From a virus, in IMG/VR virus record IMGVR_UViG_3300000553_003300, positions 2,392 to 34,442 of that record: a stretch of 32,051 bases of DNA; one strand, 5' to 3'. The notes under the pieces were generated by a model. That model was not told the DNA's origin. It saw only the letters and a program-made list of their open reading frames with translations, and made no database searches. How positions within the stretch are numbered: the stretch's first letter is position 1; each line of letters begins with the position of its first letter. Positions 269 through 23,148 of this stretch are shown one piece after another. The translations under genes were made by a program, and so were the position numbers.

Positions 269-1396
269 TTACTGTTGGTAGTAGTTATTCAATATAGAAG
301 AATAATCCGTTTTGGATATAGCTACATGCGTGTTTTCTGTAGTTTTAGTAAAGTATCCATATACTGTGTTGTTTACTATATGTACACCATTTGATATAAA
401 ACAGGCACAAGCGTTGGTCTTATACGCTTGATCCCAGTATGATATTTGTTTAGAATGCGGACTAGATATAATGGTTTCTGCTTCTATAGAGTTAGTTAAT
501 AATAAAATACCTCCAGGTATTAATATGTTATATGCTAACATCATGTATACATCTAGGTTACGTATGTTACGTATATCTTCAAACACTATAAGTCCGGCGT
601 TAGTAGACTGTAGTGTAATAGTATTAGTATTGTATATGTTATAATTATTAGCTTTACACCAAGCAACTGTCATAGGTACTGTATATGCTTTGTGCATATA
701 GTCGGTGTAATTTTCAATCCATAACTTTAAATCACTTTGAGAATGAGAGTTATCTAAATGTAGATAATATATGTAGAGTACTTCATTTATATGATGTATT
801 TTACCGTACATCATACTACGACACATTAATTCCCCATCATCACAAGCCTTTAAACTAGAGTTATGCCCACCTATTTTATTATAAAAGTCTTTACGCCACA
901 CTCTAATATGATTAGGTGCCCAAAATTGCCAACTAAAATTAGCTGGTAAAGGTGGAAACGCTACATTAATTAAACACTCTTCTTCTTTATAGTTATAGGT
1001 ACTATATTTCCACCCAAAATCTGGTCCCCAAGTATAAGGTTTATTATTAGAATCTAATACTAAATTGTTAGAATAGATAAAATCGCCTTTATCTTTATTA
1101 TTAATAAGCGTCTCTATACAAGTAGGTACAAGTTCATCATCGTGATCTACTTCTGCTAACAACTCACCAACGCCTTGCATAAAGCCGAATTTTTTAATTT
1201 CCCCAATATTAGTTCCGCCGTTATAGGGTACTATTTTTATCCACGGTTCAACTGGTAGTATAGTTACATCAGCCCCGTTGTTAGGTATTACTACCCATTC
1301 AAACCTTTTATCAGTTTGTTTAGCTATGGAATCATATAACCGTAAAAGCTTATCAGGACGGTGAGTAGGTGTTATTAATGAGACTATCGGGTCCAT
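269..1396 (-). CDS. Family 2-like glycosyltransferase (GT-A fold)
   Basis: This 375-residue protein has the hallmarks of a GT2-type glycosyltransferase, which transfers a sugar from a nucleotide-sugar to an acceptor. Residues 3-11 (PIVSLITPT) are the first beta-strand of the nucleotide-binding fold. The FEWVVIPNNG segment near 32-41 is the second. DHDDEL at 84-89 supplies the acidic DxD-type motif that binds the metal and nucleotide-sugar. The C-terminal part (about 270-375) contains YNILIPGGILLLTNS, which resembles the end of a class I methyltransferase fold, so it may be a degenerate second domain. The ATG at 1394-1396 overlaps the end of the upstream zinc-ribbon gene by 13 bases, implying translational coupling. 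The acceptor cannot be read from sequence: host envelope glycan or phage virion protein are both possible. Confidence 0.82.
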   Translation of the reverse strand: MDPIVSLITPTHRPDKLLRLYDSIAKQTDKRFEWVVIPNNGADVTILPVEPWIKIVPYNGGTNIGEIKKFGFMQGVGELLAEVDHDDELVPTCIETLINNKDKGDFIYSNNLVLDSNNKPYTWGPDFGWKYSTYNYKEEECLINVAFPPLPANFSWQFWAPNHIRVWRKDFYNKIGGHNSSLKACDDGELMCRSMMYGKIHHINEVLYIYYLHLDNSHSQSDLKLWIENYTDYMHKAYTVPMTVAWCKANNYNIYNTNTITLQSTNAGLIVFEDIRNIRNLDVYMMLAYNILIPGGILLLTNSIEAETIISSPHSKQISYWDQAYKTNACACFISNGVHIVNNTVYGYFTKTTENTHVAISKTDYSSILNNYYQQ

Positions 1397-1647
1397 TTAC
1401 TTAAAGGACACTTAGACTTTTCTAAGCGAGTTTTTATATTCATACCACACCCACAAGCCATACACCTTGATATAATACCGTCTTTTTTAAGTTTGTCGCA
1501 TGATAGACACATTGACTGTCTTTCTGTGACTACGTCCTCTGTAGCTAATATGACTCCAGATTTTATAGCTCCTGCTAAAACGTCTTTTCCGGTTTCAGAA
1601 AGACTAAAAGCCATTTGCAATAAACTAGGTCCTTGCTGTTCACTCAT
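1384..1647 (-). CDS. Small Cys-rich putative zinc-binding protein
   Basis: The C-terminal half carries CLSC, then about 12 residues later CMACGC, then a final CPLSKW, giving a Cx2C...Cx2CxC...CP pattern consistent with a zinc ribbon or similar treble-Cys site. The N-terminal half is a plain helical segment. I chose the ATG at 1645-1647 (MSEQQGP) over the upstream ATG at 1683. The longer form would overlap the sulfotransferase gene by 27 bases, and the chosen ATG has an AGTAAATA element five bases upstream. Small proteins ending in CP-x-x-KW are, to my recollection, common beside glycosyltransferase genes in marine phages, but no function is known to me. It lies between the sulfotransferase and the GT2 gene, so a role with those enzymes is possible. 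Confidence 0.68.
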   Translation of the reverse strand: MSEQQGPSLLQMAFSLSETGKDVLAGAIKSGVILATEDVVTERQSMCLSCDKLKKDGIISRCMACGCGMNIKTRLEKSKCPLSKWTR

Positions 1648-1655
1648 ATTACTAT

Positions 1656-2315
1656 TTACTTGTATCCTGCTTTTTTCAAACACTCTTCATACATTTCAAC
1701 ATCTTTTTTATTGTGATATCTTATTAGTTCACGTATCTCTTCACTTACAGAATAGTTTTCGTTTATATTTTGTTTTTTACTATTTACATTATAATCTACA
1801 GTTGGCTGATTTAAATTAAACCCCATAACTCTGTTAAACCTTTTTAATTCTTCTTTAAAGTGCTCCTTTATACCTATAAACTTAAATCTATCTAACGGAA
1901 CATCTAATAAAGAAGTAGCAATGTTTTGATGAGAAGAGTATTTAATAAAATCTTCTAACGTTACTAAATCGTATGTTCTATGTTCTGTTCTAACACCGTA
2001 TGTGTAACTAGCTCCTAGATAATAATAATACTGGGATACAACTCTTTCTACTGGGTTTCTTAACCAAGTTATTAATGTTGCATCTGGATACATGTTTAAA
2101 GCTTTAGTCGCTTTAAAATGTCCGCACATAAACTTTATATTACTGTTTGGTTTTTGCGTAACACTACCCGGTAAATTAGATCTATTAACTATTAATTCCT
2201 CGCTAATCCAGCTAGGAGAATCTATAACTAAAATATCTTTAGAATTAAACTCTTTTGATATAAGAGATTTAAACGTAGAGCCTGCTGTTTTAGGTACATG
2301 AACAAATATCAACAT
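1656..2315 (-). CDS. PAPS-dependent sulfotransferase
   Basis: The protein begins MLIFVHVPKTAGSTFKSLI, a textbook 5'-phosphosulfate-binding loop (PKTAGST, residues 8-14) of the carbohydrate sulfotransferase superfamily (Sulfotransfer_2 type). The second cofactor motif is LRNPVERVVSQY at about 85-96, with Arg86 and Ser94 placed to bind the 3'-phosphate of PAPS. Such enzymes move a sulfuryl group from PAPS to a sugar hydroxyl. At about 219 residues it is close to a minimal catalytic domain and has no membrane anchor, so it should act in the host cytosol. I prefer the ATG at 2315; a GTG two codons upstream (2321) is the alternative. An APS kinase at 6611-7375 could supply PAPS, and glycosyltransferases lie on both sides. 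The substrate is unknown. Confidence 0.85.
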   Translation of the reverse strand: MLIFVHVPKTAGSTFKSLISKEFNSKDILVIDSPSWISEELIVNRSNLPGSVTQKPNSNIKFMCGHFKATKALNMYPDATLITWLRNPVERVVSQYYYYLGASYTYGVRTEHRTYDLVTLEDFIKYSSHQNIATSLLDVPLDRFKFIGIKEHFKEELKRFNRVMGFNLNQPTVDYNVNSKKQNINENYSVSEEIRELIRYHNKKDVEMYEECLKKAGYK

Positions 2316-2350
2316 ACCCACACTTACTTTAAATAAGCTAAACTACAACT

Positions 2351-2680
2351 TTAAGTAGTAGGATATGGTAGACCGTGCGCTGATAAAGCACTTACGGAAT
2401 TTGTAGTAACATACGTTGCATAAGGCACAACTGGAATATTATATACAAACCCACCAACCGGTGCACCACCTGCTGAAGCATATCCTGTTGTACAAGTTAA
2501 AGAAGGTACATCATAATCTGTGCTTGCAATTACTACACCATAAAATGCCCCAGATGTACCACCAGTAACTGTAAGGTTAGTTGGTGTACGGTCACCACAG
2601 TTACGATAGGTAACAGCTAATACACCATTACCTGCACCAGCTGTACCACCATAATATAAAGCGTATCTTGAGCAAGACAT
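2351..2680 (-). CDS. Small Gly/Thr/Tyr-rich protein, unknown
   Basis: The 109-residue product is rich in Gly, Thr, Val and Tyr, with a predicted beta-only character and four scattered cysteines (Cys3, one in RNCGD, one in LTCTTGYA). There is no signal peptide or membrane segment. I do not recognise a family. The composition resembles small virion decoration or fibre-tip domains, which is an inference. It lies between the sulfotransferase and a 91-residue unknown protein in the leftward operon. The start is supported by an AGTAAATA element seven bases before the ATG, which is not part of any stop codon here. Confidence 0.6.
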   Translation of the reverse strand: MSCSRYALYYGGTAGAGNGVLAVTYRNCGDRTPTNLTVTGGTSGAFYGVVIASTDYDVPSLTCTTGYASAGGAPVGGFVYNIPVVPYATYVTTNSVSALSAHGLPYPTT

Positions 2681-2687
2681 ATATAAT

Positions 2688-2695
2688 TATTTACT
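2688..2695 (-). promoter_or_regulatory. AGTAAATA element before start codon
   Basis: The minus strand reads AGTAAATA here, seven bases before the ATG at 2680. The same octamer, or a one-base variant, occurs five to nine bases before several other starts in the window (1647, 2992, 9022, 10730, 16940, 23720). At this site it lies in a true intergenic gap, so it is not dictated by a stop codon. It could be a translation-initiation signal or a late-type promoter element resembling TATAAATA. Confidence 0.4.
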
Positions 2696-2716
2696 AATTG
2701 TATATGTGTTTTAATG

Positions 2717-2992
2717 TTAATTTTGATTAGAAGTAATACGATAAACTACTGTGTGACTACCGTTTTGAGAAGATAGCTCAGCATTTGGATAGTATTTGCG
2801 TACAGAACTTGCAACTTTTTCGAAAACCTCTTGACTATTACCTAATAAATCAAGACCAGCAGCAGGCTTCTTAGCTTGTACAGTGTAGTCTATCATTAGG
2901 TACATTGCGTCTTTACCGGCACTTTTAAAGGCAACCTTACATTTATTCTTAATTAAATGCTGTACTAGCTTCGGATTTGGTAATAGTTTCAT
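2717..2992 (-). CDS. Unknown 91-residue protein
   Basis: A small mixed alpha/beta protein starting MKLLPNPKLVQHLIKN. It has Lys-rich segments, a central AMYLMIDYTVQ strand, a helix around FEKVASSVRKYYPNA and a C-terminal strand (HTVVYRIT). No catalytic motif or membrane segment is visible and I do not recognise a family. The strand-helix-strand order could fit a small ferredoxin-like fold, but that is only a guess. It is spaced 36 bases from the next gene and preceded by an AGTAAATC element (2999-3006) six bases upstream of the ATG. Confidence 0.6.
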   Translation of the reverse strand: MKLLPNPKLVQHLIKNKCKVAFKSAGKDAMYLMIDYTVQAKKPAAGLDLLGNSQEVFEKVASSVRKYYPNAELSSQNGSHTVVYRITSNQN

Positions 2993-2998
2993 TATAAT

Positions 2999-3006
2999 GA
3001 TTTACT
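2999..3006 (-). promoter_or_regulatory. AGTAAATC variant before start codon
   Basis: Minus-strand AGTAAATC lies six bases before the ATG at 2992 and downstream of the HAD gene's stop region (3026), so it is intergenic. It differs from the window's recurring AGTAAATA in the last base only. Confidence 0.3.
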
Positions 3007-3025
3007 TGTATTATTTAAATATCCA

Positions 3026-3556
3026 CTAATTAGTTTTAACATCCTCTACAATATTATCTATACTTTCAACTGTAAATCCTTCTTCTTTATTGCCCCAAAA
3101 TGCAGATACATTAATGTATTTGGCGATACCGAATTTCTTAATAAAAGCTACCTTTTCAAAATTATCAAAAACTCTTAAATCATCAATAAGAACGTTTTTA
3201 CCAGTATCTATCTTTATTTTAGGGTTTTTGTGTTTCCAATCCTTAACATACTCTCTATCAAATATCCTGTCTTCGTCAAACCCGAAATTAAAAGCTTTGT
3301 TCATTGCTTGAGCATAATCTTTAGCGGCTCTAGTAAGCATATAAACATGCCCTATTTCTCTTAAACGAAACAAGAGATAATTTGCACCAGGCCTTAATAC
3401 TGCTACATAATGCTCTTTCTTACCTAACGATACAGTTACAGGCTTATCACAAAGATTGTCAACCTTTTCTACATCTCCTGCAACGGTTTTCATACCGAGA
3501 GTATGTATTAAGGTTTCGTCTAGATCGACAAATATGTTTATTGTTTCAGAGGGCAT
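3026..3556 (-). CDS. FCP1/SCP-like HAD phosphatase
   Basis: Residues 9-19 (FVDLDETLIHT) are the DxDET catalytic motif I of the FCP1/SCP branch of HAD phosphatases, with Asp11 the expected nucleophile and Asp13 the acid/base. RPGANYLLFRL (55-65) matches the RP-containing segment of this branch, Thr75 in YMLTRA fits motif II, and LIDDL (123-127) is motif III/IV with the metal-binding Asp pair. The family dephosphorylates phosphoproteins or small substrates. The start codon lies inside the upstream gene (19-base overlap), so the two are probably co-translated. No membrane segment is seen. The real substrate in a phage is unknown; 5' or 3' nucleic acid ends, or a phosphoprotein, are possibilities. 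Confidence 0.8.
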   Translation of the reverse strand: MPSETINIFVDLDETLIHTLGMKTVAGDVEKVDNLCDKPVTVSLGKKEHYVAVLRPGANYLLFRLREIGHVYMLTRAAKDYAQAMNKAFNFGFDEDRIFDREYVKDWKHKNPKIKIDTGKNVLIDDLRVFDNFEKVAFIKKFGIAKYINVSAFWGNKEEGFTVESIDNIVEDVKTN

Positions 3557-4083
3557 AAGCAGACATCGTAGTACTTACAACCATGACATTCATCATCGAG
3601 ATTAATGTGTGGCATTAAACAAGCTTCTTTTGTAACTTCAGCAATATTTGTATAAGCTGGTTCACTTCTAAAGTAATCAGGATTACCAGTCCAAGGATAG
3701 GTTCTTACTTTCTCTTCTTTACCTTCTTCGTTAATTACTACAGTGGTAGACTCTGCATGAGAAGCTAAACGTTTACGCCTTTCCTTTTTAGGCATATTAG
3801 GATGCTTCTTGAGCTTTACGTTTATCTTCGGTAACTTATTACCTTTACATTTAGAAGCTAAATCTTTAATTTGTTCTGGAGTATATCCAGCAGCCAAGTA
3901 CTTTTTAGTCTCTCTCGTGACGTACTCTTTAACAAACAACTTTAAATCGTTATTGTATTTTTCTGCTAGGGTCTTTTTAAAATACTCAATAGGTGCAAAG
4001 GTTTTTGCACCGGAAATAGAATCAACCGGGTAAACGTACTTACCACATTTAGATATAGCTATAAGGTTAGTATCAAGGTTCAT
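3538..4083 (-). CDS. Unknown Lys-rich protein with C-terminal Cys cluster
   Basis: The 181-residue product has a helical, Lys-rich N-terminal two thirds, including a very basic stretch near 90-107 (KLKKHPNMPKKERRKR). Its tail contains CHGCKYYDVCLCPLKQ, four cysteines in 11 residues plus a histidine, with one more Cys about 13 residues earlier. The tail looks like a small metal site (zinc or Fe-S). The basic middle suggests nucleic-acid contact. I do not recognise the family. Its end overlaps the start of the HAD phosphatase gene by 19 bases, so the two proteins are likely made together and may cooperate. Confidence 0.6.
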   Translation of the reverse strand: MNLDTNLIAISKCGKYVYPVDSISGAKTFAPIEYFKKTLAEKYNNDLKLFVKEYVTRETKKYLAAGYTPEQIKDLASKCKGNKLPKINVKLKKHPNMPKKERRKRLASHAESTTVVINEEGKEEKVRTYPWTGNPDYFRSEPAYTNIAEVTKEACLMPHINLDDECHGCKYYDVCLCPLKQ

Positions 4084-4119
4084 AGATACAGTATGGTGCC
4101 TTATAGGAATAGTGCAAGC

Positions 4120-4410
4120 TTATTTTTTATCAGCTGATTTTGTATTTTTACGATCTTGAGCTGTATTAATAAATTGACAAAAATAATGTGCTGTGTTAAC
4201 GTCAGGCTTGTTAGTATATAGCTTTACATGAGCAGTTTTTTGTTTCTCAGTGGCTTGTAAACTAAGCTTTGGAAAGCCTCTTTTAAGCTTGTTCTTTATG
4301 TTATGTAACTCTTTAATTTTAGTAATTGCCTGTTTTACCTTTTTACGGTAACCTGGGGAGTTATACATTTTTAAAAGTTCTGGATGGATTTTTAATTTAT
4401 CTGTCGACAT
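4120..4410 (-). CDS. Unknown small basic helical protein
   Basis: A 96-residue, strongly Lys-rich protein with long helical stretches (for example KKVKQAITKIKELHNIKNKL) and one Cys. The charge suggests binding to nucleic acid or to an acidic partner. No family is recognised. It is followed by the 181-residue Cys-tail protein upstream in coordinate terms and lies one base from the gene at 4412-4801, so it is translated from the same leftward message. Confidence 0.6.
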   Translation of the reverse strand: MSTDKLKIHPELLKMYNSPGYRKKVKQAITKIKELHNIKNKLKRGFPKLSLQATEKQKTAHVKLYTNKPDVNTAHYFCQFINTAQDRKNTKSADKK

Positions 4411-4411
4411 G

Positions 4412-4801
4412 TTAGTTTGTTTTCGATTTTAAGTTTAATTTATGTGTTAAATAATAGCCGAACATTTCAGCATTCTTTTGAGTCTTTTTTAGTAATGCTC
4501 CGTAAACGTGACCCTTTTCTTCTATAAAGTCATCACTAAAGCCTTCTTTCTGTAAACGATTTAACTCTCCCATATCAAATATTGTAGCGCGGGCAGAAGA
4601 TTTAGTAAAATCAGGAAACACTACTACAACGCCTAATTCTGATGTAATTAAAATTTGATTAGCTTTCTCTGTACCTGTAGTGTTACTTGTTTCGTTAGTA
4701 ACTACATCAATATCAACATCACACTTATAGTCTTTAGCTGCTTTTATAATGGAATCCGCGTAATCCTGTACGGCAGCATCTACTTTAATGTTGAGTCTCA
4801 T
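4412..4801 (-). CDS. Unknown 129-residue protein
   Basis: A soluble mixed alpha/beta protein beginning MRLNIKVDAAVQDYADSIIKAA. It has a hydrophobic strand around QILITSELGVVVVFPDF and a helical C-terminus. There is no recognisable catalytic motif, signal peptide or membrane span, and I cannot assign a family. The stop codon is one base from the ATG of the next gene (4410), indicating an operon. The ATG at 4799-4801 sits in a very AT-rich leader (GTAATATAATATATC) without a Shine-Dalgarno sequence. Confidence 0.6.
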   Translation of the reverse strand: MRLNIKVDAAVQDYADSIIKAAKDYKCDVDIDVVTNETSNTTGTEKANQILITSELGVVVVFPDFTKSSARATIFDMGELNRLQKEGFSDDFIEEKGHVYGALLKKTQKNAEMFGYYLTHKLNLKSKTN

Positions 4802-4840
4802 ATGATATATTATATTACATATGAAACGTTTTTCAAGTAC

Positions 4841-5041
4841 TTAAGCGTACGAATCTGTATTTTCTGGCGGAACATCTCCGGCAGAATGCACTAACGTATT
4901 CTCTTCATTATAGATCTTTATGCCGTGACCATTATTGTGTCTAGCAAAATTAAGTGCATCATGTATGCTTTCAAACGTACGTTCTACAACTTTAAGTTTG
5001 CCAAATCTCCAACTATGCAATTTTACGGTGTGCTTAGACAT
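4841..5041 (-). CDS. Small conserved-type phage protein, unknown
   Basis: A 66-residue protein with the pattern VKLHSWRFGKLKVVERTFESIHDALNFA, then a Gly-His-Gly strand (GHGIKIYNEENTLVHS). This order (strand, helix, strand with a final LVHS) is one I recall from small uncharacterised proteins of T4-like aquatic phages, but no function is known to me. It is soluble and has no catalytic signature. The gene lies one base from the stop of the GT-B glycosyltransferase gene, so the two are probably co-translated. Confidence 0.6.
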   Translation of the reverse strand: MSKHTVKLHSWRFGKLKVVERTFESIHDALNFARHNNGHGIKIYNEENTLVHSAGDVPPENTDSYA

Positions 5042-5042
5042 A

Positions 5043-6113
5043 TTAATTAAAATACTTAGTCCAAACAGACTCTGTTTCTTTACAATATTTTTTTAAAGAT
5101 CTTTGACACTGATTTACATTTCTAGCTGGGTGGTAATAAGCATCTATTAATTTTGCTGTAATATCTTGACTATCAGTAGGATCTGCACAGTAATTAGTTT
5201 CGTAAAACCACTCATTCTTTAACCAAGGTATTTCTGAACTTCCTACTATTGGTGTTCCTTCTGATATATAATCAGCTCCTACAATATTAAATGTTTCTGA
5301 AAAACTTACTTGTAAACCTATATCCATACGACCGCAAAGATTGACAAAATTTTCTCTAGGTGTCCATTCATGATTAATTAATTCATGCCCTTTATCGTGT
5401 AATTGTAAAAATAGCCCTTTCAAATTATGTAATACAGGTTCACCTTTCATTTCTATACGCCCTGCATTAATATGAAAATGTAGTTTTTTGCCTATTTTGT
5501 TTGCAAAATCAATTGCAGCAAATGCTTGTACTAAATGGTTTTTTAATAGCCTTATTGCTCCAAAACAACCTACATTTACTATTTCTTTATTATAGTCTAT
5601 AGGTTTAGGCGCCCTATAAAAGCCTGGGTAATGGTTTGGCAAATATATAACTTTGCTGTTCGATGTTTCTTTTAACCAATTATTTTTTATACGTAAATAA
5701 TTCTGTATTTCCTTATACATTCTAGGAGCATTACAAGCTATTATTACATTTTTATAAGTCGAGTAATCTCCTATCCAGTCCATTGCCATACCTTCTCCTG
5801 CCATAAACGGTAACTCACTATGCAAACGTACAATCCATTTTACATTTGGATGTAATTTTTGTAGTACATCAAACTTAGTAGGCACTACCCACAAAGCTTC
5901 AATAACAACATGTGTAGGGCGATACTTAGTAACTTCTCTATCTATATCATTATTATCTACTACTACAACTAAATTAGACTCTATATTATATGCTTTAAGC
6001 ATATTGTTTACAAAGCATGCAGAATTGTAGAGTCCTGTGCTTAAACCAATTTGAGAGTGTGCTACACCATTGTAATCTTCTCTACGTTTGAGTATAAACA
6101 AAACTTTAGCCAT
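5043..6113 (-). CDS. GT-B fold glycosyltransferase (GT4-like)
   Basis: The 356-residue size and two-lobe layout fit a GT-B glycosyltransferase. The N-lobe starts with a hydrophobic strand (AKVLFILKRR) and contains VVIEALWVVP (69-78) and VKWIVRLHSE (91-100). The inter-lobe strand VNVGCFGAIRLLKNH (179-193) is typical of the C-lobe entry. The donor-site motif is SFSETFNIVGADYISEGTPIVGSSE (270-294), equivalent to the E-x7-E motif of GT4 enzymes, with Glu273 and Glu285 as the likely pair. No membrane segment is seen. Related GT-B genes occur in many marine phages. The acceptor is unknown: host surface glycan, DNA base or virion protein are all possible. It sits 60 bases from the gene at 6174-6584 and one base before the 66-residue gene. 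Confidence 0.8.
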   Translation of the reverse strand: MAKVLFILKRREDYNGVAHSQIGLSTGLYNSACFVNNMLKAYNIESNLVVVVDNNDIDREVTKYRPTHVVIEALWVVPTKFDVLQKLHPNVKWIVRLHSELPFMAGEGMAMDWIGDYSTYKNVIIACNAPRMYKEIQNYLRIKNNWLKETSNSKVIYLPNHYPGFYRAPKPIDYNKEIVNVGCFGAIRLLKNHLVQAFAAIDFANKIGKKLHFHINAGRIEMKGEPVLHNLKGLFLQLHDKGHELINHEWTPRENFVNLCGRMDIGLQVSFSETFNIVGADYISEGTPIVGSSEIPWLKNEWFYETNYCADPTDSQDITAKLIDAYYHPARNVNQCQRSLKKYCKETESVWTKYFN

Positions 6114-6121
6114 AATATATG

Positions 6122-6138
6122 TGGGTACAATATTTACC
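6122..6138 (-). promoter_or_regulatory. Short dyad before glycosyltransferase start
   Basis: GGGTA and TACCC form a five-base-pair dyad with a seven-base loop, ending nine bases from the glycosyltransferase ATG (6113). It could be a weak hairpin affecting initiation or a protein-binding site. The stem is short, so chance is a real alternative. Confidence 0.2.
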
Positions 6139-6173
6139 CGCGCACGGCTTTTTTAAACTGTTGCACTTTATTA

Positions 6174-6584
6174 TTATGATTGACTTTGGTGACTAGGACC
6201 ACCTTGTGTAACACCAGCAGGCAAATCAGGACCTTCTATGGATTGTTCTTTATCTGCATCTCTATTGGCTTTATATATTTGACGCAAGTACTTTGTAAGA
6301 TCGTAAAAGTGATTATACTCATGCTTAACAATACCACGCCCTTCATCAAGCATTAAAACATACGTATTATCAGAATACTTTAATACCGTTTCAACCTCTC
6401 CTGGTGCATAAATTCTCATTAGCTCATTAGAGTTAGATTTTTTTCTACGAAAGTCAAAAAGCTTACTTAATACTCTGTACTCATCATCTGTAAATGGCAC
6501 TTGACGTACAGTTCTCTCTGGTTCATAAGGTTTTCCTTGTAAACCATTGTATAATTCAGCTAAAATCTTATACGTATTACGCAT
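6174..6584 (-). CDS. Unknown 136-residue protein
   Basis: A soluble protein with a charged, helical N-terminus (MRNTYKILAELYNGLQGKPYEP), a central strand-rich part (VETVLKYSDNTYVLMLDEGRG) and a helix (YDLTKYLRQIYKANRDAD). The Gly/Pro/Gln/Ser tail (GPDLPAGVTQGGPSHQSQS) looks disordered. HEYNHFYD contains closely spaced histidines but not a protease HExxH. I do not recognise a family. It lies between the APS kinase fusion and the GT-B gene in the leftward operon, with 26- and 60-base gaps. Confidence 0.6.
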   Translation of the reverse strand: MRNTYKILAELYNGLQGKPYEPERTVRQVPFTDDEYRVLSKLFDFRRKKSNSNELMRIYAPGEVETVLKYSDNTYVLMLDEGRGIVKHEYNHFYDLTKYLRQIYKANRDADKEQSIEGPDLPAGVTQGGPSHQSQS

Positions 6585-6610
6585 TACGTATACTTATGAT
6601 ATAAATCCAC

Positions 6611-7375
6611 TTATACCTTAAGTTCGTTACGTATTTTAGTAGCTGATATCTCTTGTAAGGTTTTATCTAAATCAATTTGTTCTATTTTATATCCGACATC
6701 TCTACCATAAAATATATTAGTAATGTTTGGTACTCTAACAATAGTGAACTTACTCTCATAGCCTTTCATACCAGTACGAATATTACCTTCTACTTCATCT
6801 AAATCAAACGGATTTTTTTCATCTGTACCTTTAGTATCTCTAATAGCAATACATACTTGACCTACCCTATTGAGAGCTTCTAAAATAAGAGCTTTGTGAC
6901 CGTTATGAAAAGGTTGATAACGACCGAGCATAAACGCTGTTGGTAATTTAGGATCAAATGCAGGCTGTATAATGTTCTTAATTTTGTTAGCCCAAAACAA
7001 AGGTGTACCTTCAGCTGTAACTCTTACATCATACTCAGCAGGGGGTACAAACATTTTGTTTGTATCTTCAAATCTGCCTTCTGTAATTCTGTCTACCCAG
7101 ATTACGAATGCTTTTCCGAATGCCTGTCTAGTTTCCGGTGTAGGGCATACGAAATCGGCAATCGCAAAGCTATTAGAGCGAGAAACAATATCGCACAACA
7201 CGCCCATTCTTCTAGCCTGTTCAAGACGGTCTGCAACACTGAACTTAAGGTCTTTATTAATTTCATTGCGTATTTCATCGGCATTAAAATGTGTAGCTCC
7301 TAATAGCTTAGCTAACTCTAAAGATAGAGTTGTTTTGCCTGCACCAGGCAGTCCCATTACGAGTATTTTCTTCAT
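6611..7375 (-). CDS. APS kinase fused to a nucleotidyltransferase domain
   Basis: Residues 1-125 match adenylylsulfate kinase, which phosphorylates APS to PAPS. They contain the P-loop GLPGAGKTT (8-16), a substrate helix NADEIRNEINKDLKFS (31-46), and DRLEQARRMG (49-58), equivalent to the DR-x-x-x-IRR-x-G motif of the family. Residues about 145-254 are a separate nucleotidyltransferase of the HxGH superfamily: GRYQPFHNGH (151-160) is the nucleotide-binding motif, and GRDVGY (224-229) with ISATKIR (243-249) resemble archaeal-type NMN adenylyltransferases. A full ATP sulfurylase domain is absent, so APS must come from the host unless the small domain has that activity. The fused partner's substrate is uncertain (NMN or another nucleotide precursor). 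The likely role is to provide PAPS for the sulfotransferase at 1656-2315. The protein is soluble, and the gap to the next gene upstream is 27 bases. Confidence 0.82.
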   Translation of the reverse strand: MKKILVMGLPGAGKTTLSLELAKLLGATHFNADEIRNEINKDLKFSVADRLEQARRMGVLCDIVSRSNSFAIADFVCPTPETRQAFGKAFVIWVDRITEGRFEDTNKMFVPPAEYDVRVTAEGTPLFWANKIKNIIQPAFDPKLPTAFMLGRYQPFHNGHKALILEALNRVGQVCIAIRDTKGTDEKNPFDLDEVEGNIRTGMKGYESKFTIVRVPNITNIFYGRDVGYKIEQIDLDKTLQEISATKIRNELKV

Positions 7376-12756: not shown

Positions 12757-13008
12757 ATGTACGGATTAAATAAATATTTTGCAACATACATGAACAAACT
12801 TTATATTGCTATTATAGGCATTTATGACGAAAATACAACTGAACAAATTGTATTAAAAGAAACAGGCGTGAATGCAATAAACGTGTATGAAGCTCACAAA
12901 CAAGCATTTTGGAAATGCAATGTGAAAGAAAATCAAACAGTACTACGTATACTGGAAGCTGATACACGTAAGTTGCAATTTGACTTTCAAAAAGGTTTTA
13001 CCCCTTAA
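12757..13008 (+). CDS. Plus-strand unknown protein
   Basis: A frame from 12757 to TAA at 13006-13008 encodes 83 residues. The sequence is protein-like: NKLYIAIIGIYDENTTEQIV, then helix NVYEAHKQAFWKCN, then strand QTVLRILEADTRKLQFDF. The fold could be a small alpha/beta domain. The first ATG is 12757; an in-frame ATG at 12790 (MNKLYIAIIG) is at least as likely because it begins at the first secondary-structure element. It ends with a four-base convergent overlap with the big fibre gene. No gene on the other strand covers it, and a near-consensus promoter precedes it. Function unknown. Confidence 0.6.
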   Translation: MYGLNKYFATYMNKLYIAIIGIYDENTTEQIVLKETGVNAINVYEAHKQAFWKCNVKENQTVLRILEADTRKLQFDFQKGFTP

Positions 13009-16000
13009 AGGTTGTTGCTAGTATAGCTCGGTAAAGCTTTTACTTTTTTCGGTGTAACCAAATTAAGTATATCGTTTTGTAAAATATATATGTTTGTTAA
13101 CGTACGGTTAATTACATCACTAGTAACTAATTCGTTACTGTGTACAAAATAACTATCGTTTATAGAGAACACTTCAGATATATCTGAAGGCACAAATGAA
13201 GTTAAACATATACTTGTTGTACTTGTATTAGGTATAATAAGATTGCCGTTACTATCAAGATTAATGTAATACTTTCCTTCAATTGCTTTATAAAGTATTT
13301 CATGGTTTTGAATAATGCGCAACAAGCTCTTATTATAAACCCAGTCTTGTATAAATTCATTACTATCAATTAAACAAGCAGATAAAGGCGTAAACAAAGC
13401 ATTAACTCCTATTGTATCGTACAGATTAAGAGTTGTAGGTAAATCAACAAATTTGAATATTCTAGTATTAGTAGCTAAGAAAAAGTTTAACCGGTCATCA
13501 ATAAACCCAGTTTTTAGATATTCAAAACCACCTAAAGTATCAAAGTCTGGGAATACTATTTTGTTAAGCGCTTTACCTGTTGTAAGATATTTGTATATGT
13601 AATAAGGGGTAATTAAATAAAGAAACGCACCGGTTGGATCAATTACCATTTTGTTAATAACATCATTTGATTGTATGTTACCTGAAGGTAAAATATAAGC
13701 AGTGTTGTTTGGTACAGGGAAAGCATTAATTAGATTACTCTTTTGATCTAACTCAAATATAGCATACGGAGATTTAAAAGCATATATGTTTGGTGTAGGA
13801 GTACCGTTAGAAAGCGCTGAATTAAACCCACTTAAACCTATAGCTTGTACAGCAAAGTTTGTATAATTTAAACCAGATGCTGCGGCATACTTAACTGTTT
13901 GTGTATCTGGTATAGAACCATATTGCTGATACGGTAAACTTGCATTAGACCAAATGGCGCCTGTTAATGGGGAATAATATGTACCACCAGAAATTAAGCC
14001 ATATAAAGTAAACGAATTACTGATACCAGATGATGTACTATCATTTAGTCTTAAACCGTCATGTACAAAGTTAATTTGATACATGTTACCTGTTGCAGAA
14101 GAAGCAGATATGGTTGTAGAATACGTTACAATAGGTGGCACCGGAGCAAATGTTTGCGCCAATACAAATACGTGTTCGTTGGCTCTATTTACTTCAATAC
14201 GTTGTACACTATATGCACTTAATAGACTTGTGTAAAGAGTACTTAACCAACCTAGTGCGGTGTTGTAAACTTTAACACAGCTGTTATTGCTATCCGCTAC
14301 ATAAATTTTAGCGTTCCAAGCTTTAATTTCTACAGGGTTATTGAAACCTATATTATTACTTCTTGTACCATACTCTCCACCTACTTGGGCAATAGGGGTT
14401 AATATGCCGTCGTTTATGTTAAGATCGACCTTGTATACTGTATCTGTGTCAAGTATGAAAAGTTCATCATTATAAGAATCAATAGCGCTTAAGCTATTAA
14501 AGTTAGGCATGTTAAAACTACCAATATTTGCTGCACTCAATACTAAAGTGTTGTAATAGTCATTAGTACGTACCTGTATGTAGTCAGGGTTACTACCTAA
14601 CCCAGCAAACGCAATATAATTATAGTAATCCGGAGCTGAATTGTTTGTAAATCTATAAGATTTAAAGTCTTTTACAGTACCGTCTGCAAAACCTATTGCG
14701 CTTACACTATTATATGTATTAAATAGGCCGTCATTTAATCCAGGTATAGTTGTTCTCCATGCATACCCTGTTAGAGGGGTTGTATTGCTTTGATTTAAAA
14801 TACCAGTCCACTCTACTAAATTAAAATTAATATTAAGAGAAAGAATTTGAGATACACTTTGTAAATAGTCAAAATTATCTTGTATTTTTTGTAAACTATT
14901 GTTTATGGTACCTGCTACTGCCCATTCGTTTGAACCTATTTTAATATCGTTTAATTTCCACGGTAATACAGGCGTATCTATTGTTGGGTCATAAAAATTA
15001 ACTGTTGAGTAAGTAGGTAAAGTAGCATCAATGTAAAACCTGTTAGTTAATACACGAGGCACACCACCAATACCTGCTAAAGCTGCAACAGTTACTGTGT
15101 AGCCTATATTTGCTGATATAGGTAATGTATAATTGTATAAAAAGAAATTGCTACTACTTGGTAAAGAAGTATATGATGTATAACCTGAAAGTGTGCCGTA
15201 GTAGGAATTACCTGAACCATCTCCCCAATTAATACCATAAGTTGTAACGTTTTTACTGATTGGATACACTGACTGTACCCATACTGGAGAATTTGTTGTA
15301 GCTACTGTCCAAGGCGTATAAGCTGCCAGCACACCTGTAGAAGGTGTAACAGAAGGCGTTATACTAATTGTAGGAGTTACTGTTGGTCCAGGAGTAGAAG
15401 CCGGAGTTACTGTTGGGGTAGGCGTAACTGCCGGTGTTCCTGTAGGGGTAGGTGTTGGAGTAAGAGATGCACCAGGTGTACCACTAACACTAGGTGGTGG
15501 GGTTACAGTAGGGGTAGGTGTTACAGTACTAGTCGGAGTACTTGTAGGAGTAGGAGTGATACCAGGTGTAAGAGTAACACTAGGGGTAACAGTATAAGAC
15601 GGTGTATTTGTGGGGGTTACTGTGGCTGCAGGGGTAACAGTAGGAGCCGGCGTATTAGACGGCAGCGGTGTTACCGAAGGAGTCGGAGTAGCAGGTGGTG
15701 TAGAAGCCGGAGTAGAAGTAGGTGTAGCTGCCGGTGTTGCAGGAGGCGTACCACGCGGGGTACTAGTAGGGGTAGGGGACGGTGTTGATGCCGGCGTGCT
15801 AGTGGGTGTAGGCGTTACAGATGGTGTTGTAGTAGCTGTCGGTGTAGGTGTTGGGCCTACTACTGTAACGGTATAATAAATGTACGAACTGGTTGCCCCA
15901 TTATTATCGGTTGAACTTGCCCTAAATACGTAATTACCTGTACCATGATCCCAAGTAGAACTGTAACTTGCTGTACTGCCTGGGTCGTTTGCTAAATCTG

Positions 16001-16940
16001 TATAACTACCGAATCCTGGAAATAATACCTGTATGTCAGTACTAGCTATACTACCCCAAGAAGCTGTATCAATATCGCTACCATTAGCTGTAATACTATA
16101 ACTAGTGCCTACTACTGGAGAACTACTCGGTAATGTACCCCAAGAAACTGTTGGGTAAGCATTAACGTTTATAGTCTGATATATGGTAGTTACTTGACCA
16201 TAAGAGTCTTGCGCTTGAGCACGCCATAATACAGTAGTGTTACCAGAACCGGTATCAGTAGAATTATTACCAGTATTATCAGCCGAAGAAACATAGCTAT
16301 ATGGGACTTCTGCCCACGGTACCCATGTACTACCACCATCGTAAGACTTGTCAATTAATATAGCAATTAATGCATTAGCACCCGAATATGCATTGGCTCC
16401 TGGACGATATGTTTGACCAGAATTGACTGTGTAGTTGGAAGGAAAACTACCACCATCCCATGCAATTGTTGGTGCAGCTGGTGTTGACCAGCTTACAGTA
16501 GCAGATATGTTAGAACTACCTGAATCAAAACCATATATACCACCTTCAGGGGTTGCATTACCTGAAACCGTCACACCCCCACCGAAATTGACACCGTAAT
16601 ACGTTCCACCAGGAGCTACTACAACACTATCTGCTACCCAGTCTCCGCTAGGCTGTCTTCTTAAATTATTAATCGTTACTTGAGCAGTAGCTTCAACGCT
16701 ATAACTATAAATACTTTCATTATCCGTTGCTGTATAACCACCGAAAGATGCTACAGCTTGTGCGTTATTAGGAAACTCTGAAGAATCTGTTACATAACTA
16801 GTAGTAGTACTTGTAACTACTATATTATTAAGAATGGTAGCACCGTAAGATCCTACATAATCATCAAAGTGAATAGATACAGAGTTACTAAGTGTACCCC
16901 CTGAAGTAGAACTATTATTATATAAGCTTACAGAACCCAT
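13005..16940 (-). CDS. Large adhesin with Pro/Thr stalk and propeller-like end
   Basis: The 1311-residue protein has three zones. Residues 1-359 are Ser/Thr/Tyr/Gly-rich beta domains with Ig-like segments such as IDKSYDGGSTWVPWAEVPYS and WRAQAQDSYGQVTT. Residues about 360-537 are a Pro/Thr/Ser stalk built from short TPT, TPS and TPA repeats, the mucin-like kind that often forms an extended rod and can be O-glycosylated. The rest has repeat units such as NDELFILDTDTVYKVDLN and AKIYVADSNNSCVKVYNT, which look like NHL or beta-propeller blades, near 820-930 and again near 1115-1170. It is probably a tail fibre or virion surface protein. The AGTAAATAA leader overlaps the stop of the frame-shifted LamG segment. 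An identical 76-bp block is shared with the 720-residue protein gene. Confidence 0.65.
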   Translation of the reverse strand: MGSVSLYNNSSTSGGTLSNSVSIHFDDYVGSYGATILNNIVVTSTTTSYVTDSSEFPNNAQAVASFGGYTATDNESIYSYSVEATAQVTINNLRRQPSGDWVADSVVVAPGGTYYGVNFGGGVTVSGNATPEGGIYGFDSGSSNISATVSWSTPAAPTIAWDGGSFPSNYTVNSGQTYRPGANAYSGANALIAILIDKSYDGGSTWVPWAEVPYSYVSSADNTGNNSTDTGSGNTTVLWRAQAQDSYGQVTTIYQTINVNAYPTVSWGTLPSSSPVVGTSYSITANGSDIDTASWGSIASTDIQVLFPGFGSYTDLANDPGSTASYSSTWDHGTGNYVFRASSTDNNGATSSYIYYTVTVVGPTPTPTATTTPSVTPTPTSTPASTPSPTPTSTPRGTPPATPAATPTSTPASTPPATPTPSVTPLPSNTPAPTVTPAATVTPTNTPSYTVTPSVTLTPGITPTPTSTPTSTVTPTPTVTPPPSVSGTPGASLTPTPTPTGTPAVTPTPTVTPASTPGPTVTPTISITPSVTPSTGVLAAYTPWTVATTNSPVWVQSVYPISKNVTTYGINWGDGSGNSYYGTLSGYTSYTSLPSSSNFFLYNYTLPISANIGYTVTVAALAGIGGVPRVLTNRFYIDATLPTYSTVNFYDPTIDTPVLPWKLNDIKIGSNEWAVAGTINNSLQKIQDNFDYLQSVSQILSLNINFNLVEWTGILNQSNTTPLTGYAWRTTIPGLNDGLFNTYNSVSAIGFADGTVKDFKSYRFTNNSAPDYYNYIAFAGLGSNPDYIQVRTNDYYNTLVLSAANIGSFNMPNFNSLSAIDSYNDELFILDTDTVYKVDLNINDGILTPIAQVGGEYGTRSNNIGFNNPVEIKAWNAKIYVADSNNSCVKVYNTALGWLSTLYTSLLSAYSVQRIEVNRANEHVFVLAQTFAPVPPIVTYSTTISASSATGNMYQINFVHDGLRLNDSTSSGISNSFTLYGLISGGTYYSPLTGAIWSNASLPYQQYGSIPDTQTVKYAAASGLNYTNFAVQAIGLSGFNSALSNGTPTPNIYAFKSPYAIFELDQKSNLINAFPVPNNTAYILPSGNIQSNDVINKMVIDPTGAFLYLITPYYIYKYLTTGKALNKIVFPDFDTLGGFEYLKTGFIDDRLNFFLATNTRIFKFVDLPTTLNLYDTIGVNALFTPLSACLIDSNEFIQDWVYNKSLLRIIQNHEILYKAIEGKYYINLDSNGNLIIPNTSTTSICLTSFVPSDISEVFSINDSYFVHSNELVTSDVINRTLTNIYILQNDILNLVTPKKVKALPSYTSNNL
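15440..15515 (-). repeat. 76-bp direct repeat, copy 1 (stalk gene)
   Basis: These 76 bases are identical to 22713-22788 and lie in the Pro/Thr stalk of the 1311-residue protein. The coded peptide includes [17 protein letters not shown]. Identity at every base, including third codon positions, is not expected from convergence of simple Pro/Thr codons, since neighbouring stalk units use varied codons. It points to recent recombination or duplication. Confidence 0.9.
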
Positions 16941-20985: not shown

Positions 20986-23148
20986 TTAACCGAAAACGTC
21001 ACTATTACCACTATCGTCTCCACCAAGAAAGCCTCCACCGTCTAACCCTCCACCATCTCCATTACCCATGATACCATCAGAACCCCCTGCATCAGCTCCT
21101 GCATTGGTACTATCGTTTGTAGTTTGTGGATATATAAGGCCCGTATCAGGAGAAATATAAGCCCCATTAGCATCTACTTCCCCTTGCGGTACGGCGGTAG
21201 AATTTGCAATAGAATCGGTAATTGCTTGACTTTGTGCATCTACATTTGCATCTAAAGAAGCAAATATTGAATCAGTAGCAGATTGAGTAGAAGCATCTAA
21301 AGATTGCTGAGCAGCTGTGGTTTGATCTACTATTGAATTTGCAATACTCTGTACTATAGGGTTAGAATATGTTTGATTAATATTAATACCGGAATTATTA
21401 GTTAAATCAGTAAGAGTGTCTGTTAAACCTTGCACAAAACCACCAATTTGAGCATCTATATTTGTTTGTACATTGCTATTTAATTCTTCAAGAGTGCCTT
21501 GCAAAGTTAACGGGCTACCTGCTAAAACTGGGTTTTCTATATCGCTAGCTTCTGGTACGGTTGAGTTTTCAGGTAAAGAGTAATCCACTGGAGGGGAATT
21601 ACTAAATGTTGGGTCTCCTGTTCCTATATAAAATCCAGGGTCTATAATTATTACCGGCCCATAACCTCCACCACCTCCACCAGAACCACCCCCACCAGAA
21701 CCACCACCCGGACCAACTACTACTGTAATTATATCAAATAATGAAGTTATAACCACATCTTGAGAAATAGTTATAGTAGAATTATCAAGACTACCTTGCG
21801 TGGTATTAACACTTATTTGATTGCCTGCTGTAACAAGACTACCGTTAATAACGCAAGCCCCGCTATTTACTTGATAGCCTACTACATAGTAACCACCAAG
21901 AGGTTGAGCATTAAGACTATATGTGCCTGCAGGTAAATTTACCGGGTTACCAGTACCGTCTCCATTTATAGAAGTAAATAAACCATTGTTACCGTTAATA
22001 GGGGTAGCTGCATAGCTTTGTACCGCTCCCACCGTGGCCATAGATGAATATACTGTATCGTTGGTAGTGTTTGATGTGTATGCTCTATAATAATATGTAT
22101 TTGCACCTAAACCACCATCTGTAAGAGTTAAAGTGTTATTAACTGTATTAGGGTAAATTGGAGAACCGGTAACGTCAGTCCAAGTAGCTTGATCAGTAGA
22201 ACGCTGTATACCATGTATGTTAAGTACAACATTACCCCAATTAGAATTAGCATTAGATGTTAAATTAACTGTAAATGGGCCGCCCCCAGAAAAAGAAGCA
22301 GGGCTAGTGCTTATATCTACAGTTACTTGATTGTTAATAACCTGTATAACACTAGAATCACTTGAGTAATAGGTTGTACCGTTAACTACAGCATATGCAA
22401 TAAATTGATAATAACCTGGCCCTGAATCTGGAGACCATGTAGTGGTTATTACAGGGTTAGTAGCATTAGGGGATATACTTGCTATAGTAACGTAACCACC
22501 GCCTGTTGGCGGGTTAGTACTACCACTACGGGCCTGTATTGCAAAGCTTGAAACTTGTAAGTTTGAAAAAGCTTCACTCGATATAGTTAAAGACGTACCA
22601 TTTGTTATAATTGACGGAAAAAGATTTATACCGTCAAATACCCCTGGGGTGGTTACAGAAACACTAGCTACAGTACCATGAGTAGGGGTAGGGGTAGGAG
22701 AAGGATATGGGGCTGTAGGGGTAGGTGTTGGAGTAAGAGATGCACCAGGTGTACCACTAACACTAGGTGGTGGGGTTACAGTAGGGGTGTTTGTCGGTGT
22801 AAATGTTGGAGTAGGACTATGAGTAGGTGGCGGTGTTGGGGTAGGTGTTGGGGTAGAATATAAATTCCTAAATATATTCTTTAAATCGTTACCACCAATA
22901 CCAACGTTCGGTGTTGTGTTAACAGCAAAATCTGTAGGGTTTGCTATTTGATCGCTAATTACATTAGAACGATCAAACAAATCATTTAAATCATGTTGTA
23001 TACCACCAGAAAGTACTTTATAACCTGTTACAGGGGCTTGATTTACCCCTGAATACGGAGCAAATGCAGAAACTAAATCTACATAAGTAGCCGAAGCGCC
23101 TTGCACGCCTAGGTTTACATTATAAAGATAGCCTGTAGCAGATAACAT
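20986..23148 (-). CDS. Virion protein with Pro/Thr stalk, Gly linker and helical end
   Basis: The 720-residue protein starts with about 95 residues of mixed sequence ([20 protein letters not shown]), followed by a short Pro/Thr stalk (about 97-157). Next come Ig-like beta domains (for example [16 protein letters not shown]) to about 470, and then a Gly/Ser linker of about 20 residues (478-497). The C-terminal part near 558-650 is Gln/Asn/Asp/Ser helical with a coiled-coil look ([11 protein letters not shown]), and the end is a Gly/Asp-rich tail ([14 protein letters not shown]). It is likely a multi-domain fibre or neck appendage. It shares the 76-bp block with the 1311-residue gene. Its ATG overlaps the stop of the S74 gene by one base (TAATG), so translation is coupled. 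Confidence 0.6.
22713..22788 (-). repeat. 76-bp direct repeat, copy 2 (stalk gene)
   Basis: Identical base for base to 15440-15515, lying in the short stalk of the 720-residue protein. The flanks diverge at once on both sides. The two copies are about 7.3 kb apart in the same orientation, so homologous recombination between them would delete the LamG and nucleotidyltransferase genes and fuse the two stalk genes. Confidence 0.9.

Follow-up and report, generated by a model that had tools for sequence, protein, structure and literature searches.

In PAPS synthase (3′-phosphoadenosine 5′-phosphosulfate synthase; human PAPSS1), an N-terminal domain with the fold of adenosine 5′-phosphosulfate (APS) kinase precedes a C-terminal nucleotidyltransferase, ATP sulfurylase, in a single fusion protein. 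Genes that score as APS kinase (cysC) have been described from freshwater phages, with transcripts (PMC10914622), from Challenger Deep viruses (PMC9529941), and in a further publication as an auxiliary metabolic gene (PMC12713726), and the first two of these reports place the gene in assimilatory sulfate reduction. The co-occurrence of sulfotransferases and glycosyltransferases in viral contigs has also been published, in a paper that also cites prior work on the glycosylation and sulfation of nucleotides in phages (PMC10829341). In this study, we analyzed a 32,051-nucleotide stretch of viral DNA, hereafter the window, which covers positions 2,392 to 34,442 of the 45,228-base IMG/VR virus record IMGVR_UViG_3300000553_003300 (G000:C1:2392-34442). 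It encodes a fusion of an APS-kinase-like and a nucleotidyltransferase-like domain, which we call KNT, together with a separate PAPS-type sulfotransferase (Table 1). The best explanation for this locus, and one that we consider reasonably probable as a whole, is that KNT is a compact sulfate-activating enzyme that feeds the sulfotransferase. That KNT works in sulfate activation at all is likely.

An initial annotation of this DNA had called KNT an APS kinase, a name that captures half of the protein. Residues 4–86 do match Pfam APS_kinase (47.7 bits against a cut-off of 21.1), but residues 149–192 match CTP_transf_like (26.9 bits, cut-off 21), a second domain that had been overlooked, and phrog_10255 (“kinase”) spans residues 1–253 with an E-value of 1.2e-53. 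KNT is therefore a two-domain fusion. The AlphaFold2 (AF2) model of the whole protein has a mean predicted local distance difference test score (pLDDT) of 88.5. At the top of the VIA structural ranking for the kinase domain stands Arabidopsis APS kinase (Z 19.2, root-mean-square deviation [rmsd] 1.7, 139 aligned residues), and the best match to any other kind of kinase is gluconate kinase (Z 16.2, rmsd 2.3, 133 aligned), with shikimate kinases at about 13; APS kinase is thus the nearest solved fold. Five residues of the kinase half, D33, R36, F45, R50 and R56, are invariant in all 35 aligned relatives, and we take the first four of them to have a role in APS binding.

The second domain, which also yields a well-scored AF2 model on its own (pLDDT 90.5), is most similar to phosphopantetheine adenylyltransferase (PPAT, Z 11.4) and nicotinamide mononucleotide adenylyltransferase (NMNAT, Z 10.8), which are tied. 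These two enzymes fill the 50 best rows of the fold ranking, and ATP sulfurylase is not among these 50. The domain carries the signatures GRYQPFHxGH and ISATxIR, presumably typical of the nucleotidyltransferase superfamily as a whole. KNT differs from PAPS synthase in having a second domain of about 110 residues that is NMNAT/PPAT-like and without the ATP sulfurylase family PF01747, in a kinase domain without a lid, and in a total length of only 254 residues, but it shares the domain arrangement, and the gene context of its relatives is sulfate-related. Human PAPS synthetase 1 spans the entire KNT model with a Z of 17.5, but at an rmsd of 19.5, and hence nothing can be concluded from this match for the second domain.

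What connects the second domain with sulfate is an operon found in bacteria. In an alphaproteobacterial metagenome-assembled genome, the two halves of KNT are separate genes, encoding a kinase of 168 residues and a nucleotidyltransferase of 117 residues, in the order CbiX-CysG-CysI-CysH-DUF2061-kinase-nucleotidyltransferase (L322:856-5991), and CysG, CysI and the phosphoadenylyl-sulfate reductase CysH all score above their NCBIfam cut-offs. The separate nucleotidyltransferase was found in five of six genomes of one alphaproteobacterial order, and the order CysI-CysH-DUF2061-kinase-nucleotidyltransferase holds in all five (L322, L403-L406). Upstream, CysG is present in five of five (one is cut by the contig end) and CbiX in four; the gene names in the four genomes other than L322 were assigned by eye. 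No PF01747 and no CysN were found in four of these five genomes, and the search of the same four for CysD gave nothing but weak matches, in G103 and G104, whose position is that of CysH itself. When 385 genomes were sampled across the class, the nucleotidyltransferase was detected at E ≤ 1e-15 in 12, and a classical ATP sulfurylase was found in two of these 12 compared with 13 of 21 others (Fisher p 0.027). The 21 consist of the one genome of the order without the nucleotidyltransferase (G106) and the 20 that come first in the list of 373 genomes with no match to it. The surroundings of the gene showed no recognizable cys operon in the seven of the 12 genomes that do not belong to the order. 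One nucleotidyltransferase match, at about 5944-6284 of L421 (genome G400), is split over two frames, and its relative in G311 lies in one frame. The operon is a possible new route of sulfate activation. That the second domain is an ATP sulfurylase, as its gene context leads us to predict, is in our judgment an even question. The broader proposal is just as evenly balanced, namely that an undescribed, minimal ATP sulfurylase of about 110 residues serves sulfate activation in at least one alphaproteobacterial order when split, and when fused to a lid-less APS kinase makes KNT a 254-residue PAPS synthase that is widespread in uncultivated phages and feeds their sulfotransferases.

Alternatively, KNT might be an APS (or APS-like) kinase only, boosting the PAPS supply of a host that provides the APS, with the second domain acting on some other phosphate ester. 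Such a role would agree with the kinase fold and the Pfam match, and phages have repeatedly been reported with cysC in the available parts of two of the papers cited above (PMC10914622, PMC9529941). However, it leaves unexplained the nucleotidyltransferase gene that ends a cys operon in genomes of which four in five have no classical ATP sulfurylase that we could find, as well as the persistent fusion of both domains in phages. We consider this alternative unlikely but not negligible.

The gene that lies between CysH and the kinase in the bacterial operon, DUF2061, encodes a small membrane protein (L318-L397). Species genomes were scanned with an alignment of phage DUF2061 sequences and the best 80 loci were kept, 71 of which contributed 103 immediate neighbors. 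Among the 25 families listed of 56, there are 18 PAPS_reduct, seven APS_kinase, seven sulfite reductase, four GTP_EFTU (CysN-type), three Inositol_P and three Sulfotransfer_3 neighbors, the remaining listed families having no relation to sulfur. Three further cases are fusions, with DUF2061 and a classical APS kinase in one protein. On account of these neighbors and fusions, bacterial DUF2061 can be described as often, not always, a neighbor of sulfate metabolism, and KNT travels with it. A first scan of viral contigs gave at least 599 KNT relatives and contributed 79 loci to the analysis, and two further scans brought the total to 225 loci with 125 distinct proteins; 79 clamp-loader loci served as controls (mean length 10.7 kb, compared with 12.3 kb for KNT representatives). 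By profile search, 84 of the 125 distinct KNTs and none of the 79 controls have a DUF2061-type gene at a distance of no more than 400 bp. All 84 are on the strand of KNT, 82 of them downstream, and Pfam PF09834 (DUF2061) was confirmed in both phage examples tested. When KNTs are clustered at 90% identity, DUF2061 accompanies 30 of 50 clusters and a sulfotransferase-like gene 21 of 50.

The window itself very probably encodes a PAPS-type sulfotransferase, as predicted from its sequence. The call made in the initial annotation holds, with a score of 36.5 bits against a cut-off of 22 for Pfam Sulfotransfer_2 (PF03567), and the gene begins at a GTG, two codons outside the ATG (2315) that the initial annotation had taken. 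Both the 5′-phosphosulfate-binding motif (5′-PSB; HVPKTAGST) and the 3′-phosphate-binding motif (3′-PB; RNPVERVVS) are conserved among 25 aligned phage sulfotransferases, two of which are copies of the source phage's own: the Lys/Arg of the 5′-PSB is present in 23, R88 in 24 and S96 in 24, the rest being gaps. We assume that the 5′-PSB loop and the Arg and Ser of the 3′-PB are the PAPS-binding motifs of the enzyme. The family score and both motifs are shared with the Sulfotransfer_2 carbohydrate O-sulfotransferases, from which the protein differs in being phage-encoded and 221 residues long, and in that only eight of the 25 phage sequences have the His of the GHF motif; the local match to heparan sulfate 2-O-sulfotransferase is insignificant (E 0.56). 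A scan with this single sequence found only four viral contigs, at 99% and all from the same phage, and a search of 50,697 phage records found no relative of it at a threshold of E 0.001.

Sulfotransferases are enriched near KNT. A Sulfotransfer_2-type profile has a match in 25 of the 125 KNT loci and in none of the 79 controls. Some of the sampled KNT-locus matches are under the Pfam cut-off, and three of six tested have no Pfam match at all. With a second sulfotransferase family (Sulfotransfer_1 was matched by one of the two members tested), the count rises to 40 of 125 (41 if E = 1e-5 itself is counted), and both families together give no control match at E 1e-5 and two at 1e-4. In the 24 representative loci that have a first-family sulfotransferase, this gene is within 800 bp of KNT in 14, when 7.4 are expected from shuffled gene slots (standard deviation 2.2, p 0.004). 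A 222-kb phage record (G012, L015) has an array of sulfotransferases, with ten PF03567 matches, four of them directly upstream of KNT. Among isolated phages, full-length KNT occurs in five INPHARED entries, and two of these, Bhz60 and Clavibacter phage 33, have a gene that scores above the Sulfotransfer_4 cut-off two genes upstream of KNT. Relatives of this gene are found in six of the 50,697 phage records; four of the six carry KNT, which is four of the five full-length-KNT isolates, but these four appear to form one clade and hence represent a single event. In the remaining isolate, DLP6, a 2OG-Fe(II) oxygenase is encoded near KNT, and the stretch examined around this KNT showed no sulfotransferase. 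The initial annotation had treated a PAPS-making enzyme and a PAPS-type sulfotransferase as partners, and the enrichment, seen also in one isolate group, supports the view that they belong together.

Assimilatory sulfate reduction was considered as the purpose of KNT in phages and rejected, as our own model found a CysH-like gene in 0 of 125 KNT loci. PF01747 is also absent from 22 KNT virus records. The lack of CysH-like genes and the enrichment of sulfotransferases set KNT apart from the phage cysC reports, whose available text mentions no nucleotidyltransferase domain; the likeness to those genes is one of description and not of compared identity. Similarly, the published sulfotransferase/glycosyltransferase modification systems resemble this locus in having both kinds of enzyme in phage contigs, but the relevant passage of that paper names no PAPS-making enzyme, and neither PAPS nor cysC occurs in its text (PMC10829341). 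Phage cysC genes and the co-occurrence of phage sulfotransferases with glycosyltransferases are thus already known. What appears to be new is the fused second domain, its context of DUF2061 and sulfotransferases, and the split genes in a bacterial sulfate operon; in the literature searched, outside subscription journals, we found neither the role proposed for the fusion nor an account that links phages with APS kinase, ATP sulfurylase and a nucleotidyltransferase together, and DUF2061 is mentioned in only four papers there. If our explanation is true, some of the phage cysC genes at present assigned to assimilatory sulfate reduction would serve sulfation instead, with phages producing activated sulfate of their own for transfer to some acceptor. 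APS would also have a source in addition to Sat and CysDN, which would explain sulfate activation in some small-genome bacteria that have CysH and CysI without a recognized ATP sulfurylase.

Several observations weigh against sulfate activation by KNT in the service of a sulfotransferase. KNT scores far under the cut-off of the NCBIfam apsK equivalog (40.7 versus 138.7 bits), and by eye its kinase domain is missing the lid segment (GEI..FTG..PYE), which L342, L349 and L357 have in their classical APS kinases. The second domain has no Pfam match to PF01747 to E 0.1. Among the operon genomes, G105 has a classical Sat (PF01747) on another contig (L423:1796-2872); this gene sits among surface-polysaccharide-like genes (named by eye), away from the cys operon of that genome. 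G290, the other of the two nucleotidyltransferase genomes with a classical enzyme, has CysN and a partial match to CysD, and G106, which completes the six genomes of the order, yielded no match to the nucleotidyltransferase and none to a classical ATP sulfurylase. The completeness of these genomes is uncertain, and absence from a single genome is therefore weak evidence.

The linkage to sulfotransferases has exceptions of its own. The two later scans used queries chosen from sulfotransferase-bearing loci, which inflates the frequency among the 125 KNTs, and two profile models found no sulfotransferase in the DNA of 85 of these loci. In the unbiased first scan, 14 of 79 records have a PF03567 match with a threshold of E 0.001; the match is above cut-off in 11 of them, and four of the 14 are fragments of the source phage itself. 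No DUF2061 was found in the parts of the source record searched by profile. When neighbors within 3.5 kb are clustered, nuclease-, endolysin-, thioredoxin- and HSP20-like genes (named by eye) occur in more loci than any sulfotransferase. Likewise, in a Pfam scan of 145 neighbors of the 50 KNT clusters, the commonest of the best 25 of 69 families are SNase (8), 2OG-FeII_Oxy_3 (7) and HSP20 (6), with Sulfotransfer_3 and Glycos_transf_2 among several families that have three. These common families offer no argument for sulfate, and much of the shared neighborhood of KNT is therefore ordinary phage gene order. The closest relatives with shared gene order, a sister phage represented by G004 and G005 (L007/L008; KNT 80%, glycosyltransferase GT-B 74% and Cys-rich gene 40% identical), have no PF03567 match, and neither of our two models found a sulfotransferase in the sister loci. 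Finally, the first half of the second domain, and that half alone, resembles NMNAT by sequence, and in Bhz60 and Clavibacter phage 33 (Casjensviridae) a NADAR gene lies between the Sulfotransfer_4 gene and KNT and overlaps the latter (L427:3559-4002, L428:3559-4002), which is a hint of nicotinamide adenine dinucleotide (NAD) metabolism.

The last two points would fit a NadR-like enzyme of NAD salvage, combining a riboside kinase with an NMN adenylyltransferase, with the sulfotransferases as coincidental accessory genes, and the overlap with NADAR in isolates is the reason why we keep this rival. NadR joins a kinase to a nucleotidyltransferase, in a domain order opposite to that of KNT, and both the architecture and a GRxQPxHxGH motif are common to KNT and the NadR and NMNAT-Nudix enzymes, in line with the GRYQPFHxGH and ISATxIR signatures. 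However, the kinase of KNT is of the APS-kinase type, and the best NMNAT matches reach at most positions 9–73 of a 115-position profile. The NMNAT cut-offs of NCBIfam are missed by far (TIGR01527, 29.3 versus 181.2; PRK01153, 33.2 versus 127). The unmatched second half is where, we presume, NMNATs hold their nicotinamide-stacking loop, and that part appears to be lost. Moreover, no NAD partner genes were found in viral contigs, with NADAR in 0 of 125 KNT loci (two-sequence model) and nicotinamide phosphoribosyltransferase (PF04095) in 0 of 25 KNT records, and no NAD family is among the best 25 of the 69 neighbor families. The context of DUF2061 and CysH/CysI in the relatives also argues against NAD salvage, which we regard as quite improbable.

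Returning to a sulfate-activating KNT, we infer two catalytic steps from the domains, the folds, the PAPS-binding motifs, the gene linkage and the bacterial operon with split KNT halves. The C-terminal nucleotidyltransferase domain would form APS from ATP and sulfate, and the N-terminal domain would phosphorylate APS to give PAPS as the product. The sulfotransferase would then transfer sulfate from PAPS to an acceptor, for which a sugar added by the nearby family 2 glycosyltransferase (GT2), the GT-B enzyme or both is the likeliest candidate. The glycan is our guess, made because 14 loci have a GT8-like gene whose median distance to KNT is 0 bp (one example gave a Pfam match at E 0.021), because a different GT2 follows KNT in the sister phage, and because L009 and L013 have homologues of the window GT2 (37–40% identity) at about 700 bp from their KNT genes. 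The initial annotation had included glycosyltransferases in the module, and they do adjoin KNT in some loci, but they are not its commonest neighbors.

Within this explanation, the acceptor could be a host envelope polysaccharide or lipopolysaccharide, sulfated with PAPS that the phage makes to drive this, for example against superinfection; modification of the host envelope had been the alternative given in the initial annotation. In some loci, glycosyltransferase genes and carbamoyltransferase, FkbM methyltransferase and 2OG-Fe(II) oxygenase families are found near KNT, which would fit tailoring of this kind, but such genes could equally act on virion proteins or nucleotides, and we put an envelope acceptor at somewhat short of an even chance. 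Alternatively, the sulfotransferase and glycosyltransferases might modify nucleotides or DNA. One paper cites reports of phage systems that glycosylate and sulfate nucleotides by means of glycosyltransferases and sulfotransferases, and states that such genes co-occur with nucleotide-synthesis genes (PMC10829341); nothing that points to modified bases was noticed in the window, where no dedicated test for them was made, and we think this acceptor distinctly improbable.

The initial annotation had proposed yet another acceptor, the Pro/Thr/Ser stalks of the virion, on which the module would build sulfated O-glycans. Its starting point was sound, for rods, glycosyltransferases and a sulfotransferase are indeed found within one genome, and the three rods are real by composition, with 190, 80 and about 310 residues (26–29% Pro, 29–36% Thr and 10–14% Ser; 282 residues of the third pass a second composition test). 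However, the sister phage, in which the gene order, KNT and the GT-B gene are retained, has rods of its own (in G005, of 196 and 153 residues) without the sulfotransferase or the window GT2, the latter being unmatched there at E 1e-5. The sulfotransferase and the GT2, which lie on either side of the Cys-rich gene, look like insertions in this phage or losses from its sister. We also searched 26 records for rods by a Pro-[Thr/Ser] pattern and dropped four fragments of the source phage. Of the remaining 22, mostly fragment records, six have the rod pattern (two of the six, G004 and G005, are nearly the same phage) and seven a Sulfotransfer_2 match (two of the seven under the Pfam cut-off), and one has both when 1.9 are expected. 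The addition of a sulfotransferase found in G066 by our own model gives eight records, two of them with both, when 2.2 are expected. Co-occurrence is therefore at the level of chance, an outcome that the initial annotation had itself named as one that would refute its proposal, and in these fragmentary records rods and sulfotransferase do not track each other. Furthermore, G012, G013 and G015, each with 3 to 10 sulfotransferase matches, have no rod pattern. A stalk acceptor is hence very improbable.

Table 1. Principal features of the window, with positions counted from its first nucleotide.
Feature	Position	Strand	Evidence
KNT, APS-kinase-like and NMNAT/PPAT-like nucleotidyltransferase fusion, 254 residues	6611..7375	-	Pfam; phrog_10255; AF2 model; context of relatives
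KNT kinase domain, residues 1-138	6962..7375	-	Structural match to Arabidopsis APS kinase
KNT nucleotidyltransferase domain, residues 139-254 (about 110 residues)	6614..6961	-	AF2 model; separate bacterial homologue gene
Predicted PAPS-type sulfotransferase, 221 residues	1656..2321	-	Sulfotransfer_2 above cut-off; 5′-PSB and 3′-PB motifs
Small Cys-rich zinc-ribbon-like protein, between sulfotransferase and GT2	1384..1647	-	phrog_13558, E 3.5e-13
GT2 glycosyltransferase	269..1396	-	Pfam Glycos_transf_2 above cut-off
Probable GT-B glycosyltransferase	5043..6113	-	phrog_2170, E 0.0018; 74% identity in sister phage
Structural-operon protein with 190-residue Pro/Thr/Ser rod	13005..16940	-	Composition
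Protein with 80-residue Pro/Thr/Ser rod	20986..23148	-	Composition
Protein with about 310-residue Pro/Thr/Ser rod	23747..25519	-	Composition

All the reading frames of the initial annotation are open as it had placed them, and most of its remaining gene names can be retained. The GT2 matches Pfam Glycos_transf_2 with 30.7 bits against a cut-off of 23.3. The GT-B call is less secure, as it comes mainly from a GT-B-like motif read by eye, and the protein has no Pfam match to E 0.1 and no sequence match in the Protein Data Bank to E 1. The small Cys-rich protein, described as a zinc protein, is DUF6171-like at a score slightly under the cut-off (25.4 versus 27), and its PHROG match is listed in Table 1.

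Outside the window, the source record has clamp-loader-, ribonucleotide-reductase-, PhoH- and baseplate-like genes (named by eye), which suggest that it derives from a T4-like myophage. Immediately outside the window there is also a tryptophan-halogenase-like gene, again named by eye (G000:C1:705-2210; L002). The sister phage has a counterpart in the same position (L008:18011-19522), and similar genes are found near KNT in L284 and L308. Within the window, positions 3026-3556 encode a NIF/FCP1-type phosphatase (Pfam) that is 71% identical in the sister phage, and positions 27045-28925 encode a collagen-like protein with SGYSGYSG repeats and PHROG tail-fibre matches.

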